35,206 bases of DNA, from the NCBI GenBank assembly GCA_003221615.1, contig QHSQ01000171.1, positions 1-35,206 of the forward strand. Reading direction: 5' to 3'. This stretch comes from Candidatus Rokuibacteriota bacterium (GTDB taxonomy: Bacteria > Methylomirabilota > Methylomirabilia > Rokubacteriales > CSP1-6). Under the pieces are notes generated by a model. That model was not told where the DNA came from, made no database searches, and saw only the letters and a list, made by a program, of their open reading frames with translations. The number at the start of each line of letters is the position of its first letter. Position 1 is the first letter of the stretch. The translations under genes and the position numbers were made by a program. This document shows positions 8,232 to 35,144 of the stretch, in pieces.

Positions 8232-9269
8232 CTACGAACGCACGCCTTCGAGAATGCTGAACGATGACGACGCCGGGTGGATTTTCACCAGGCTGAAGCC
8301 TGACGCATCAAAGAGCGTCCGATACTGTGCTTCCGTACGTTCCTGACCTCCCCCAGACACGAGGTGGAGGATGTCGCTCACTTTGATGCGCGCTGGTGCA
8401 TTCCCCGCCGGGACGATTGCCTGGATCACTAAAAGACGCCCACCACTCGTCATGGCCTCGCGACAGTTTCGCAGCACCCGCGCGGCCTTGGCGTCGTCCA
8501 TCCCGTGCAGGATGCTCTTGAGGATGTAGACGTCCCCGCCGCTGGGCACGGACTCGAAGTAGTCCCCCGCGACGAGCTCGCAACGCGCTGCCACGCCGGC
8601 GGCCTCGAGCACGGTTCGAGCATCATCGATGAGCGCGGGGAGCTCTACGAGAATGCCGCGGAGAAGGGGAGATTGCCTCAGGATAGCTGCAATGAGCTCG
8701 CCGCGGCCCCCGCCGACATCGACGATCCGTTGATACGTAGTAAAGCCATAGGCGGTCACGAGCGCGGGGATCGCCCTTCGTGTGAGTTCCGCCATGCCCT
8801 CACTGAATCGTTCGAACGCGTCGGGATTTTGCGCATACCACTCCCAGTTGGTCATGCCATAGATATGCTCGACCGCCGATTTGCCCGTCTTCACGCTGTA
8901 GAGCAGCTCGCCCCAGGCCCGCCATCTGGATTCCTCGGCCTGCATGACGGCCAATCCGCGAAGCGAGCCAGGTACCCCGGTCTGCAGTGGCGCGGCAAGC
9001 GGCGTCAGTTCGAAGGCGCCTTCCTCAGTCTCCGCAAAGATGCCATTGCTCGCGAGGGCGCGCAGCACGCGATAGAGGGCATGCGGATGAACTCCCGTCC
9101 GCGAGGCTAGTTCGTCACAGCTTCTCGCCCCGCCTTTGAGGAGATCGGCTATCTCGAGACGAGCCGCTACATGAATCAGCTGGCTCAGCCTGTAGGCCAT
9201 GATCATCTCGGTCAGGCTATCGGCGGCCGATGCTTCGACTACATGATCGAAATGACTGGACGGTGGCAC
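8232..9269 (-). CDS. SAM-dependent O-methyltransferase, acetylserotonin O-methyltransferase-like
   Basis: A 345-residue class I methyltransferase of the plant-type O-methyltransferase family. An N-terminal winged-helix dimerisation domain (MAYRLSQLIHVAARLEIADL, then LASRTGVHPHALYRVLRAL) is followed by the SAM-binding glycine loop VDVGGGRGEL, the acidic GDYFESVP segment and KSILHGMDD with the usual catalytic His. It would methylate a hydroxyl of a small, probably aromatic, molecule in the cytosol. I chose the GTG at 9269: GAGGAGG lies 5-7 bases ahead and the start then falls 14 bp behind the monooxygenase stop. It is the last gene of the operon that includes the MerB-like selenoprotein. Substrate is unknown. 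Confidence 0.9.
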   Translation of the reverse strand: MPPSSHFDHVVEASAADSLTEMIMAYRLSQLIHVAARLEIADLLKGGARSCDELASRTGVHPHALYRVLRALASNGIFAETEEGAFELTPLAAPLQTGVPGSLRGLAVMQAEESRWRAWGELLYSVKTGKSAVEHIYGMTNWEWYAQNPDAFERFSEGMAELTRRAIPALVTAYGFTTYQRIVDVGGGRGELIAAILRQSPLLRGILVELPALIDDARTVLEAAGVAARCELVAGDYFESVPSGGDVYILKSILHGMDDAKAARVLRNCREAMTSGGRLLVIQAIVPAGNAPARIKVSDILHLVSGGGQERTEAQYRTLFDASGFSLVKIHPASSSFSILEGVRS

Positions 9270-9283
9270 GGCGTCCTCCTCAC

Positions 9284-10486
9284 TCAGTGCATCTCGGCCA
9301 CCTTCATCTTCTCGCGCCACGCTGGCCGGTATGCCTTGACCGCCGGAATGACTTCGCGGGTCATGAGATCGATGCTGTGGATCGCCGCGGCATGAGACAT
9401 GAGACCTTCACGGCCCCAAAGAGTCATATAGGCTGGGTCGACGAGATCGATGATGTGCTGGAGTTTCTTCACCACCGTGTCCGGGTTCCCGGACACGATC
9501 TGGTACGTGGCGTGGGCGCCCTCGTACGAGAGAGCGGGACCACCGGGCGTGATGTTCACCGCGCCCGTCCTCGCCTGTTCGCGCCGGCTCGTCCGCGCCG
9601 CGTGGCTGACATAGCCGGCGGGCTGCAGCCACTGGCGCGGCGCGATCCCGAACGATGTCCCGAGTTGCCAGTAGAAGTGCCGGCCCTGCTCGTAGGCCTC
9701 CTCGTCCGTATCCGCCACGCTCACCCGGATCACGTAGCCGCGGTGCTCCGCTGTGGGCGTGAACCCGGTCTCGAGCGCCACGTCGTCGTAGAGATCGTAG
9801 ATCTCGTCGATCACGTCGAGCGGCGGCGCGAGAGCCACGTAGGGATAGCGATGCTCGGCGGCCCAGCGGACAGATTCCGGGCTCACCACGCCGGGAATCC
9901 AGATGGGCGGATGCGGTTTCTGGAGGGGGCGCATCCACGGGTTGACGACCCGGTACTCGTAGTGTCGGCCCGCCCAGCGGAACGGGCCCGGCGTGGTCCA
10001 CGCCTTGACGATCACGTCGTGAGCCTCGTCGAACCGTTCGCGGTTGTAGGCGGGATTCACGTTGGTGGCCAGACTTTCCTGCCCGAGCCCCCGCACGAAA
10101 CCGCAGACCACGCGACCGCCCGAGAGGATGTCGATCATCGCGACTTCCTCTGCGACGCGTAGCGGGTTGTCGTGAATGGGCAAGACGTTGCCGAGGAAGA
10201 CGATGCGGCCCTTCCGCGTCGCCCGGGCGAGGACGGCGCCGATCACGTTCACGGACGGCATCATGCTGAGCGGGTTGTTGTGGTGCTCGTTGATCATGAT
10301 CCCGTCGAAGCCCGTCTCGGTGCAGTACACGAGCTCGTCGAAATACATCGCGTAGAGCTCGCGCGCCCGCTCGGGACTGAAGTGCTCGTTGGGGAACAAG
10401 AGATTGTTGTAGCCGCGCTGCCGGGCCTCGTCTTGCGGGTACGCCGTGTAGCCCATCTCGGTAAAGAAGTAGACTTCCTTGACCAT
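9284..10486 (-). CDS. LLM-class flavin-dependent monooxygenase
   Basis: A 400-residue luciferase-like monooxygenase (bacterial luciferase/F420 reductase superfamily TIM barrel). Recognisable parts are FDGIMINEHHNNP near the N-terminus, the flavin-site segment NVLPIHDNPLRVAEEVAMID, LSGGRVVCGFVRGLGQE and KPHPPIWIPGVVSPES. Such enzymes use FMNH2 or F420 with O2 to oxidise or cleave small organic molecules, including C-S bonds. The ATG at 10486 has GAGGAGG upstream. It lies 25 bp behind the MerB-like selenoprotein gene and 14 bp ahead of the methyltransferase, so it is in the same transcript. A combined catabolic or detoxifying role with its neighbours is inference. Confidence 0.92.
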   Translation of the reverse strand: MVKEVYFFTEMGYTAYPQDEARQRGYNNLLFPNEHFSPERARELYAMYFDELVYCTETGFDGIMINEHHNNPLSMMPSVNVIGAVLARATRKGRIVFLGNVLPIHDNPLRVAEEVAMIDILSGGRVVCGFVRGLGQESLATNVNPAYNRERFDEAHDVIVKAWTTPGPFRWAGRHYEYRVVNPWMRPLQKPHPPIWIPGVVSPESVRWAAEHRYPYVALAPPLDVIDEIYDLYDDVALETGFTPTAEHRGYVIRVSVADTDEEAYEQGRHFYWQLGTSFGIAPRQWLQPAGYVSHAARTSRREQARTGAVNITPGGPALSYEGAHATYQIVSGNPDTVVKKLQHIIDLVDPAYMTLWGREGLMSHAAAIHSIDLMTREVIPAVKAYRPAWREKMKVAEMH

Positions 10487-10511: not shown

Positions 10512-11261
10512 TCAGGCCTGCGACGGCGTGCCGGGCGGCGTCACCATCAGGGCGTCAGGGGTCCCCAGCCAGAACGGGCTGCGCTTGTTGATCTGCTCGA
10601 GATAGGCGCGGCGCTCGGCGGCTCGCCGCGGGTACCACGCCGATAGATAGTCCTGGTCCAGCATGTGGCGGCGCGTCTCCGTCCCGAAGAAGCCGGCGAG
10701 GGCGGCGAGCGTGATGAAGCCCTCCTCCGCGCGCGGCTGGAACGCGGGCCAGCGGCGAGCATGCTCTTCCGCCCGGAAGAGGTTCATGCCTGTTCAGAGA
10801 AACGGCGGCCGGCCTCGCGAGGGGCCGAACCCATAGTTGAGGTGGCCGATGACCCCGGGTGGGTCGACCCAGACGATACGACCGTCGCGCATTTCGACCG
10901 TGACCGGGTCGCCGCAGTCCAGGCACGGGGCATCGATGCGGACCGTCTCGCCGGGGAACAGCCAGGTGACAGAGGTCGCCTCGAAGCCGCACTGAGCGAA
11001 CCACCGCTGGGCACCGCGCACGGTGACCCGGTACTGTGTCGGCAAGTTGTTGAGCGGCGGGAACGACGCGATGTAGTCCGTGTCGGGATGGAGCCAGCCG
11101 ATCGGGTAGGCTTGCATCACGTCATGGAGGAGTCGGCGCCCTTCTTCGACAGGAAGCCCGAGCGCGCGGGCGAGCTCGGCATAGTGAGGCGCGCGCCCGG
11201 TCTCGACGAGCCCGCGCATGATGCGCTGAAACATCCGGTCCATGAGGAGCGGGTGGGGCAT
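10512..11261 (-). CDS. MerB-like (alkylmercury lyase family) selenoprotein, in-frame UGA = Sec156
   Basis: Two frames that look like separate ORFs (155 and 91 residues) are in the same frame, separated by one UGA at 10794-10796. Read through, they give 249 residues. Residues 15-50 form a helix-turn-helix like the MerB N-terminus (HYAELARALGLPVEEGRRLL). The lyase core follows: Cys91 in AQCGFEA aligns with MerB Cys96, Glu94 with Asp99, Cys113 with Cys117, and the UGA with catalytic Cys159, because the next residues TGMNLFRAEEHARRW match the CHHVHFF-type segment after Cys159. MerB breaks carbon-mercury bonds; this divergent homologue may use another substrate. A strong SECIS-like hairpin follows the UGA. 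Downstream codons are intact and family-like, arguing against a nonsense mutation. The ATG at 11261 has only a distant GAGGA. It lies between the amidohydrolase and monooxygenase genes. Confidence 0.83.
10758..10790 (-). promoter_or_regulatory. Bacterial SECIS-like hairpin of the MerB-like gene
   Basis: On the mRNA strand, counting the U of UGA as 1, CUCUUCC (16-22) pairs perfectly with GGAAGAG (27-33) around a GGGC loop (23-26). A lower stem GCAUG (8-12) with CAUGC (34-38) continues after a 3-nt bulge AAC at 13-15, and G7-U39 can add a wobble pair. Nineteen bases separate the UGA from the loop, inside the 16-37 nt range known for bacterial SECIS elements, and the loop begins with G as SelB requires. 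The geometry parallels E. coli fdhF, whose GGUC loop begins at position 22. Confidence 0.75.
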
Positions 11262-11297: not shown

Positions 11298-12443
11298 TTA
11301 TGCTCCCCCCAGCCCGTAGAGCGCGGCGGCATTGTCATGAGTCAGCTTGCGGCGCACCTCCGGGGACAGGTGCCGCATCTGCCGCTCGATCGCTTCGCGG
11401 GAGTTGGGCCAGACGCTGTCGGGGTGGGGATAGTCCGACGCCCACAGCAGGTGGCCCTCGCCGAAGAACGGAATGAGCGAGATCGCCACATGGTCTTCCT
11501 GGAAGGTCGCGTAGATCTGCCGCTTGAAGAGCTCGCTCGGCTTCGTTTCGAGGGCGCTGCCGCCCTTGTCGGCCCAGAATTCCTTCGCCTCCCAGAGGCG
11601 CCAGTGACGGTAGTCGAGCTCCTGAACGAGCCAGGGGAGCCAGCCCGTGCCGGCCTCTGCCATCACCATGCGCAATCTCGGGTGGCGCTCGAGGATGCCC
11701 CAGGCGAAGAGGTCGACGAAGGGCTCGAGGAAGTTCGCGAGGAAGAACTTGGTGTTCTCGAAGACGCTCGCGGCCTTGCCGGCGACGCGATCGCCCGGCT
11801 TGCCGACGAACACCGTGATGTGCCAGGAGAGGATGATGCCGCTCTCCTCGAGCGCCTGCCAGAGCGGCTCCCAGGCCGGGTCGTCGAGCTTGGGGTTGAT
11901 GTTGGCGATCATGAGATTCACCTGGCGCACGCCGCCCTTCGCCCTCACCCGCTCGAGCTCGGCGAGCGCGCCCTCGGGCGTCTCCGGCAGCATCGGCAGG
12001 CCGATGAGCCGGTCGGGCGCCGCCTTGCAGAAGTCGAGCAGCCAGTCGTTGTAGACGCGATAGCAGGCGGTGCGTAGCACGGGATCGTCGGTCGAGATCT
12101 GGAAGATCGGCCCGAAGATCACCTGGGTCGAGACGCCGTCGCGGTCCATGTCGGCCAGACGCAGCTCGGCGACGGCCGGGCGGCGCGCGCTCGGGTCGTA
12201 GATGCCGGCGCGGTCGAAGGCGTTGTAGAGCTGCTTGATCGGCCGCGTTGAACCCGTCGCCGGCGGCTTGCCGTCCCAGCGGCCCCAGACCTTCCCGTCG
12301 CACACCCAGACCGCCTGCCCGTCGCGCTCCTCGACATGCGGCGCGCGGTCCAGCAGCGACGCGGGCAACCGCGTGGTCCACAGATCCGCGGGCAGCTGGC
12401 TGAGATCCATGTGATCGTCGCAGGAGATGAGCCGGTCAGTCAT
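11298..12443 (-). CDS. Amidohydrolase-2 family metal-dependent hydrolase
   Basis: A 381-residue protein of the amidohydrolase 2 family (PF04909, ACMSD-like TIM barrel). The N-terminal metal site reads SCDDHMD (His-x-Asp rather than HxH), a central His occurs in LSWHITVFVG and the C-terminal Asp in LLWASDYPHPDS. Typical markers RLADMDRDGVSTQVIFGP and RLRMVMAEAGTGWLPW are present. Members hydrolyse or decarboxylate small organic acids. The ATG at 12443 has GGAGG 7 bases upstream. It sits 86 bp behind the CMD selenoprotein and 36 bp ahead of the MerB-like selenoprotein. A more distant family member is encoded at 30585-31835. Substrate is unknown. Confidence 0.92.
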   Translation of the reverse strand: MTDRLISCDDHMDLSQLPADLWTTRLPASLLDRAPHVEERDGQAVWVCDGKVWGRWDGKPPATGSTRPIKQLYNAFDRAGIYDPSARRPAVAELRLADMDRDGVSTQVIFGPIFQISTDDPVLRTACYRVYNDWLLDFCKAAPDRLIGLPMLPETPEGALAELERVRAKGGVRQVNLMIANINPKLDDPAWEPLWQALEESGIILSWHITVFVGKPGDRVAGKAASVFENTKFFLANFLEPFVDLFAWGILERHPRLRMVMAEAGTGWLPWLVQELDYRHWRLWEAKEFWADKGGSALETKPSELFKRQIYATFQEDHVAISLIPFFGEGHLLWASDYPHPDSVWPNSREAIERQMRHLSPEVRRKLTHDNAAALYGLGGA

Positions 12444-33043: not shown

Positions 33044-34456
33044 TCAACGCGATGCGGTGCGATGCGCCAGCGGCGGCACATTCGACAAGAGCGCGCCGAG
33101 TCCCTCCGCCATCGTCAGGTGGGCCAGAACGGCGTCGCGAAGCTTGGGATAAGGCAGCTCGGCCAGCATGGCCGCCTGAACCGCCGCCATCACCTCACCG
33201 GCCTCGGGCCCGATCATCGTGAAGCCGAGGATACGATCGTCACTTGCCGAGACGAGCGCTTTCATCAAGCCCGGCCGTGCGTCCACCGCTTGCACCCGCA
33301 GCACGTCGCTCATCGGGAGCTTCGCCACGCGGGTCGCCACGCCCTGGCGATGTGCGTCGCGCTCGCTCAATCCAACGTGGGCCAGTGGCGGATCCGTGAA
33401 CACGCAGTACGGGATCAGCCGGTCGCGCGTGCTGCGGTTGCCGCCGGCAAGATTGTCTTTGATGATCCGGAAGTCGTCGACCGAGGCGTGCGTGAAGTGT
33501 GGGGTCCCGGCGCATTCGCCGATAGCCCAGACGTCCGGCGCGGTCGTCTCGAGCCGGTCGTTGACACGCACGTAGCCCCGAGCGCCGAGCTCGATGCCGG
33601 CCTGCTCGAGGCCCACCCCGGCCGTGTTGGGTGTGCGCCCTACGGCGACGAGGATGTCGCTGCCTTCGATCCGTTGCTCGCCGTCTGCCGTCCGCACCAG
33701 CACCGTGACGTCCTTTCCCGACCGACCGTGCACACGGAGCGTCTGGGCCCCGACGAGACATTCGATGCCTTCGGCGCTCAGGATCCGCTGCACTTCACTG
33801 GAGATGTCGGGATCTTCCTGGCTGAGAAGCTGCGGGTCATGCTGGATGATCGTCACGCGACTGCCGAAGCGACGGTACGCCTGGCTGAATTCGACACCGA
33901 CATAGCCTCCGCCCAGCACGACCAGGTGTGGCGGCACGTGGTCGAATTCCAGCGCTTCGATGCTGGTCAGCGGGCCGGACGCCTCCAGGCCGGGAACGCC
34001 GGGAATCGTCCCGTGGGTGCCGACGTTGACGAAGACCTTGTCTGCGTGGAGGACACGCGCCCCCCCGTCGTTCAGACGCACCTCCAGTGTTTTCGGAGCG
34101 ACGAAACGGCCGGTCCCCATGATCAGCTCGGTGCCGCTGTCCTTGTAGGCGCGCAGGTGCGCGTCGACCTGCCTGTCGACCATGTCGCGCTTGCGCTGGC
34201 GAACCTTCATCATGTCGACCGCGACGCGATCGGTCATCGTCCCGAACTCCGCGCCGTGGCGCGCGACGTACGCGACGTTCGCGCTCCATATCTCGTTCTT
34301 GCTCGGCATGCAGTTGATGTTCGGGCACGAGCCGCCGATCCATCGGCGCTCCACGACCGCCGTGCGTCGGCCGGATCGTGCCAGATCCCAGGCGAGCAGC
34401 TTCCCGCCCTGTCCACTGCCGAGCACGAGCGCGTCGAACCGTTCCGGTGCAGCCAT
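33044..34456 (-). CDS. FAD-dependent pyridine nucleotide-disulfide oxidoreductase (dihydrolipoamide dehydrogenase/MerA-like)
   Basis: A 470-residue class I flavoprotein disulfide reductase. ATG 34456 has GGAGGGA 6-7 bases upstream. The FAD motif LVLGSGQGGK is at the N-terminus, the redox disulfide C44-C49 is in GGSCPNINCMPSK, the NAD(P)H motif is LVVLGGGYVGVEF, and DVWAIGECAG is the second FAD segment. The C-terminal HLTMAE matches the HPTxxE acid-base region. There is no C-terminal Cys pair, so mercuric reductase activity is not indicated. Such enzymes reduce lipoamide, glutathione or mycothiol disulfides in the cytosol. Between the sigma factor and the OsmC selenoprotein, it is a good candidate to supply reducing power to the latter. 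Confidence 0.92.
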   Translation of the reverse strand: MAAPERFDALVLGSGQGGKLLAWDLARSGRRTAVVERRWIGGSCPNINCMPSKNEIWSANVAYVARHGAEFGTMTDRVAVDMMKVRQRKRDMVDRQVDAHLRAYKDSGTELIMGTGRFVAPKTLEVRLNDGGARVLHADKVFVNVGTHGTIPGVPGLEASGPLTSIEALEFDHVPPHLVVLGGGYVGVEFSQAYRRFGSRVTIIQHDPQLLSQEDPDISSEVQRILSAEGIECLVGAQTLRVHGRSGKDVTVLVRTADGEQRIEGSDILVAVGRTPNTAGVGLEQAGIELGARGYVRVNDRLETTAPDVWAIGECAGTPHFTHASVDDFRIIKDNLAGGNRSTRDRLIPYCVFTDPPLAHVGLSERDAHRQGVATRVAKLPMSDVLRVQAVDARPGLMKALVSASDDRILGFTMIGPEAGEVMAAVQAAMLAELPYPKLRDAVLAHLTMAEGLGALLSNVPPLAHRTASR

Positions 34457-34487
34457 ACAGTCCCTCCAGGCAGAAGGTCTTCGGACG

Positions 34488-35144
34488 TCAGCCTTCTGAT
34501 GAACGTGTCTGCACTCCGGTTTCGGAGGTCCCTTCGATTTGCATGAACGTCGAGAGCCGTTTGCGAAGCAGGAGACGCGCACGGTGGGCGCGGGTCTTCG
34601 CCGTCCCAACTGTGATCCCTAGGGCGTCGGCGACCTCGGCCATCGATAATCCTTCGACATCGCGCAGGACGATCGCGGCCCGATAGTGAGGCGGAAGCTC
34701 CGAGACCGCCGAGCTGAGCACGCCCCGAAGCTCCGTTCGCATCGCCGGGTCGTCGAGCTTCGTCGACCAGTCGGTGATCCGATCCGCATGGTGGCCATCC
34801 TCGTGGAACTGGGGAAGGACTTCGTCAAGCGTGATCTCGTTGCGTCGGTGTGCGCCGCTTCGGCGGTTCTGGTAAGCGGCGTTTGCGGTGATGCGGTAGA
34901 TCCACGATCGCAGTGACGACTCACGCCGGAACGTGTCGATCTTCCTCACCACGTTCCAGAACGCGTCCTGCACGACCTCCTCGGCGTCTTGTCGGTTGCC
35001 CGTGATCGCGATCGCGAGGCGATACGCGCGGTCGCCGAATGTGGCGACGAGACACTCGGCGGCGGTCGCATCGCGCCGGCGCAACGCTTCGACGAGCCGC
35101 CAGTCGCAGTCACCTTTCTGCTGAATGCCATCCGGATGAATCAC
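34488..35144 (-). CDS. ECF-type RNA polymerase sigma factor (sigma-70 family)
   Basis: A 218-residue extracytoplasmic-function sigma factor. Region 2 is clear (FGDRAYRLAIAITGNRQDAE, then EEVVQDAFWNVVRKIDTFR and SLRSWIYRITANAAYQNRRS); region 4 includes LPPHYRAAIVLRDVEGLSMA and the helix-turn-helix VADALGITVGTAKTRAHRAR. It would direct polymerase to a stress regulon. No anti-sigma gene is visible downstream; the next genes are the reductase and OsmC selenoprotein, 31 and 23 bp apart, so the sigma factor probably drives its own operon. The GTG start at 35144 lacks a ribosome binding site and may be slightly long. Only 62 bp remain upstream in the window. Confidence 0.92.
   Translation of the reverse strand: MIHPDGIQQKGDCDWRLVEALRRRDATAAECLVATFGDRAYRLAIAITGNRQDAEEVVQDAFWNVVRKIDTFRRESSLRSWIYRITANAAYQNRRSGAHRRNEITLDEVLPQFHEDGHHADRITDWSTKLDDPAMRTELRGVLSSAVSELPPHYRAAIVLRDVEGLSMAEVADALGITVGTAKTRAHRARLLLRKRLSTFMQIEGTSETGVQTRSSEG

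Follow-up and report, generated by a model that had tools for sequence, protein, structure and literature searches.

Predicted selenocysteine at the catalytic Cys159 position in a separate clade of MerB-like proteins

MerB (alkylmercury lyase; PF03243, NF009710, NF033555) is the textbook methylmercury-degrading enzyme. The R-Hg substrate is bound by Cys96 and Cys159, and the carbon group is protonated through Asp99 (PMC4525700); organomercurial lyase proper has a strict Cys96/Asp99/Cys159 triad (PMC8261052). A MerB-like selenoprotein of the same Pfam family (PF03243) has already been listed as SaoL, model NF040728, with the motif CU (PMC9312934, PMC13188914). SaoL belongs to the Sao (selenocysteine-assisted organometallic) systems, in which it is the MerB-like organometallic lyase. 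A first-pass annotation of the DNA studied here had stated that no selenocysteine (Sec)-containing MerB homologue was described, which is contradicted by SaoL in these two sources and by locus L204, a true SaoL whose 175.1 bits exceed the NF040728 cut-off of 140 (E 9.4e-52).

The window analyzed here is a stretch of 35,206 nucleotides from a metagenome-assembled genome (MAG) of Candidatus Rokuibacteriota (contig QHSQ01000171.1). On its minus strand, from 11261 to 10512, one UGA lies inside a single reading frame for a MerB-fold protein of 249 residues, with the ATG start at 11261, the in-frame UGA at 10796-10794 (residue 156), and the terminal TGA at 10514-10512. The joined protein matches PF03243 over residues 73-180 (E = 2.8e-14), and its score of 53.6 bits against a gathering cut-off of 27 places it in the MerB superfamily. 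The match runs across the UGA, which bears out the earlier proposal that this codon splits one MerB-family protein. An AlphaFold2 model built from 68 family sequences has a mean pLDDT of 93.4, and a Foldseek search of the PDB returned eleven chains at E <= 0.001, every one of them MerB (E=7.2e-11 to 3f2f).

A HMMER alignment to the solved MerB proteins defines the active site. Cys91 (10989..10991, minus strand, as for all features of the gene) corresponds to MerB Cys96, Glu94 (10980..10982) replaces Asp99, and the UGA codon (10794..10796) corresponds to Cys159, so the residue assignments proposed from the sequence by the first-pass annotation hold against the PDB MerB sequences. The two adjacent MerB cysteines at the UGA column were told apart with the C160S mutant entry 3f2g. 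A Cys113-x-x-Cys116 motif (10914..10925) includes the invariant Cys113, equivalent to MerB Cys117, and a variable Cys116. The modeled structure and the alignment together leave very little doubt that the protein has the MerB fold with a homologous active site.

Compared with MerB, the window protein is about 22% identical in the structural alignment and keeps the Cys96 equivalent, but it has Sec for Cys159 and Glu for Asp99. The resulting Cys91/Glu94/Sec156 arrangement departs from the strict triad, and the scores against the MerB equivalog cut-offs fall far below them (27.4 vs 193 and 24 vs 200). With SaoL, the protein shares the MerB superfamily, Sec at the identical column (DTC-U-NVMNFF in L204), and a hairpin after the Sec codon. 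It differs in that the residue before Sec is Leu (L-U), whereas SaoL has Cys in its CU motif; the scanned neighbors of the window gene belong to families other than sao; and the score against NF040728 is 35.3 bits, below the cut-off of 140. Over 68 members of the window clade, the best NF040728 E-value is 1.1e-12, and no other NCBIfam model matched any of the 68 at E <= 0.001. The tree assigns the window family to a distinct clade with support of 96/97, to which neither SaoL nor MerB nor the two other Sec paralogues of the host belong. The below-cut-off NCBIfam scores and the separate clade therefore make the window family a new branch among MerB-like selenoproteins. As far as checked, the new elements are this clade without an NCBIfam model, a Sec156 column without exception, and a second in-frame UGA in 33 of 79 loci. 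Deng et al. 2026, cited in PMC13188914, reportedly describe a MAG from Methylomirabilota for which 63 selenoproteins are predicted, and some of the present genes may already be listed there. A single Sec at this site is familiar from SaoL; a widespread unnamed family that often carries two should surprise specialists.

The active-site correspondence suggests a mechanism. A selenolate is ionised at neutral pH and is softer than a thiolate. SelB and tRNA-Sec would decode the UGA at codon 156, aided by a hairpin predicted just downstream, and the Sec156 selenolate would take the place of the attacking thiolate of MerB Cys159. Cys91 would provide the second soft ligand and Glu94 the proton relay. 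The selenolate/thiolate pair could then bind a soft, organo-bound metal or metalloid, after which the carbon group would be protonated off, much as MerB does with R-Hg. Overall, the best explanation of the locus is a MerB-fold selenoprotein that carries out MerB-type carbon-metal(loid) cleavage, to which we assign a probability of roughly 0.6; by analogy with MerB, the lyase function itself is probable. That mercury is the main substrate appears rather unlikely: organomercury is one candidate, a link that we infer from the fold and the active site. Several features speak against the mercury or lyase reading, among them the Glu in place of Asp99, the catabolic-looking neighbors, and the lack, described below, of mer genes nearby and of a MerA above cut-off in the host. 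The Asp99 position does tolerate change, since MerB2 has Ser there in the alignment. Surveys for the Cys96/Asp99/Cys159 triad would miss these genes, and ORF callers split them in two. Should the clade prove to break carbon-metal bonds, the turnover of organometals in soil, sediment, and groundwater has been undercounted.

The gene neighborhood bears on the choice of reaction. The window gene is preceded, after a gap of 36 nt, by an Amidohydro_2 gene (11298..12443, minus strand; PF04909, E=1.9e-33) and followed, after 25 nt, by a luciferase-like (LLM) oxidoreductase gene (9284..10486, minus strand; PF00296, E=4.7e-39), both likely in the same operon. The next gene, an O-methyltransferase (8232..9320, minus strand; PF00891, E=2.4e-42), overlaps the LLM gene by 37 nt. 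The scanned neighbors in the window are thus of families other than mer, and the 25 commonest families in a set of 99 adjacent proteins include no mer genes. No MerA above cut-off was found in the host MAG. Elsewhere in the window, 33044-34609 encodes an FAD disulfide reductase that is related to MerA and lipoamide dehydrogenase, scores below the listed NCBIfam cut-offs, and has a C-terminus without the vicinal cysteine pair.

This setting lends some weight to a different function for the same selenoprotein, in which the MerB fold was recruited for a redox reaction or for C-S or C-Se cleavage in a catabolic pathway shared with the amidohydrolase and LLM neighbors. The order Amidohydro_2, Sec gene, LLM, O-methyltransferase in the operon fits such a role, as do the Glu at the Asp99 position, the absence of mer context, and the LLM-type proteins, which are the commonest identified neighbor family (6 of the 99 adjacent proteins). 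The context is weak evidence, however, because neighbors vary from genome to genome, with conservation only among close relatives, and these genomes probably contain many LLM genes. Moreover, the two soft-metal ligand positions of MerB are Cys or Sec throughout the window clade. We regard such a function as possible, though clearly the less probable choice. A broader view, possible but less likely than not, is of a large selenium-dependent family in which Sec at the 159 column is obligatory, a second Sec is frequent, and the natural substrate is a catabolic one other than organomercury. This might be an organometal(loid), a carbon-sulfur, or a carbon-selenium compound, and the chemistry of the MerB fold would then be much wider than mercury resistance. 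If the clade does not cleave carbon-metal bonds, a new selenium-dependent reaction awaits discovery.

One line of evidence that the UGA is translated is its conservation. When 84,980 species genomes were searched with two peptide patterns, neither of which includes the UGA site, 80 loci were recovered, in Rokubacteria, Deltaproteobacteria, Chloroflexi, Nitrospinae, Nitrospirae, Acidimicrobiia, Betaproteobacteria, and others. UGA occupies the residue 156 column in all 79 loci that extend across it, so that Sec at this column has no exception among the loci compared; as the search patterns left the position free, chance is excluded. The UGA is kept in close Rokubacterial orthologues of about 57-90% identity, and in seven of eight pairwise comparisons with orthologues most substitutions 3' of it, as upstream, affect the third base of the codon. 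The remaining orthologue, L096, has a small insertion (seen as L029) but was compared in an ungapped alignment. Several Acidimicrobiia members (L132, L136, L142, L143, L146, L147, L150, and L152) carry a C-terminal extension, with a reading frame of 366 residues.

The second line of evidence is a SECIS-type hairpin at 10764..10781 (minus strand), identified by structure prediction and covariation across 77 aligned genes. It begins fifteen bases past the first base of the UGA and has the consensus CUCUUCC-GGUC-GGAAGAG; in the window, the 7-bp stem CUCUUCC/GGAAGAG closes a 4-nt loop, GGGC, in place of the family GGUC. Across the 77 genes, 98.1% of cells are paired, against 42-58% in every slid control, and 16 cells have changed on both sides, a count that none of 500 shuffles reached. 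With the protein and the codon usage of each gene held fixed, the region 3' of the UGA is structured beyond expectation in 78 genes (mean z -1.53), whereas ten control positions lie near 0. Of the 78 genes, 72 carry the GGUC loop. The window gene is one of three without the loop U, which 75 genes have; its G at 10772 makes codon 164 GCG (Ala) as compared with UCG (Ser). Since the loop departs from GGUC, the window gene may be read through with lower efficiency; alternatively, the base itself may be erroneous. Taken alone, the window hairpin is not significant (z -0.58 under the synonymous-codon null, z -1.23 under dinucleotide shuffling), and Rfam at gathering thresholds gave no match in the window. 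The hairpin is also present in the Sec genes of a Rokubacterial paralogue clade and is weakened or lost in its two Cys genes, L177 and L180; as far as sequence comparison goes, this weakening is a natural control for a Sec-linked hairpin.

The host has the means to insert Sec. Its MAG encodes tRNA-Sec, SelB, and SelA on one contig (C263) and SelD on another (C106), the SelD gene itself with an in-frame UGA. Of 27 gene-bearing genomes sampled, 26 have a SelB above cut-off; within Methylomirabilota this co-occurrence carries no information, since a SelB above cut-off is present in 83 of 94 genomes. Cysteine occupies the Sec column in the wider superfamily, in Methylomirabilota sequences (L170-L180) and in an actinobacterial sample (L234, L240, L241, L243, and L244). 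Two checks proposed with the original annotation, a complete host selA/selB/selC/selD set and Cys homologues at position 156, have thus both come out in its favor, the homologues lying in sister clades.

Together, these comparisons make it nearly certain that the window gene encodes a selenoprotein. If the UGA were instead a true stop, the locus would hold either one gene that is truncated or in decay or two separate short ones, and the ORF listing does give two ORFs here, the second with an ATG a few codons past the UGA; the atypical hairpin loop of the window also fits. We reject both a stop codon and a pseudogene as very improbable: the 79 loci that cover the site conserve the UGA together with the two halves, most substitutions past it affect third codon positions, the hairpin covaries, and the Sec machinery is complete. 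A sequencing or assembly error, for which a MAG of 596 contigs with 8.55% estimated contamination might give some cause, or a code with TGA as a sense codon, is refuted to the point of being negligible, because independently assembled genomes of many phyla share this UGA. TGA terminates 18 of the 32 called window ORFs of 140 codons or more, which makes the genetic code standard, without TGA reassignment.

The clade also offers a second substitution. In 33 of the 79 loci, L107 among them, another in-frame UGA replaces Cys91, the equivalent of MerB Cys96. A 14-codon structure window gave no signal at this second UGA. Codons +4 to +12 after the site have z -1.47 in 30 Sec91 genes vs -0.11 in 46 Cys91 genes, a difference that is supportive only, because the window was picked from eight tried. 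All 30 Sec91 genes have the Leu codon CTG at +5. In the PMC13188914 catalogue, where SaoL has one Sec, no double-Sec MerB relative was found. Because nature supplies Cys/Cys, Cys/Sec, and Sec/Sec forms at the same pair of sites, the series is useful for asking when Sec replaces Cys. Provided that the clade does break carbon-metal bonds, an enzyme with two catalytic Sec residues also offers a direct test of what selenium contributes to soft-metal chemistry. A Desulfobacterota group (L206, L208-L210), outside both the window clade and SaoL, likewise has UGA at both catalytic cysteine positions. It shares Sec at the same column and a similar hairpin with the window protein but belongs to another clade, a long branch grouped with SaoL, with the motif U(K/R)(E/K)SV(Y/F)F.

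Further MerB-like selenoproteins occur in the host and its relatives. Across 95 Methylomirabilota genomes, the host included, the majority of PF03243 matches have exactly one in-frame TGA, so that MerB-like proteins of this phylum usually take the Sec form. The two paralogues in the host MAG, on contigs C121 and C458 (SLUTTINFFRSEEH), are PF03243 proteins with Sec at the same column and the same hairpin; unlike the window protein, they fall on the MerB/SaoL side of the tree. The C121 paralogue (L070, 990-2462) is flanked by a YruB-type Sec-glutaredoxin with the motif WSSTUQSCH on one side and by a divergent regulator of the MerR family on the other, and this cluster is a possible selenium-based mercury resistance cluster. 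The two other Sec MerB paralogues of the host, one of them being this neighbor of a MerR-type regulator and a Sec-glutaredoxin, are better candidates for mercury resistance than the window gene. Another Sec MerB type, AHUPSTNFFCTEE, is found in a Methylomirabilota family (f5; L044 and L047), with a Sec-glutaredoxin (SQPGUGACH) encoded just downstream.
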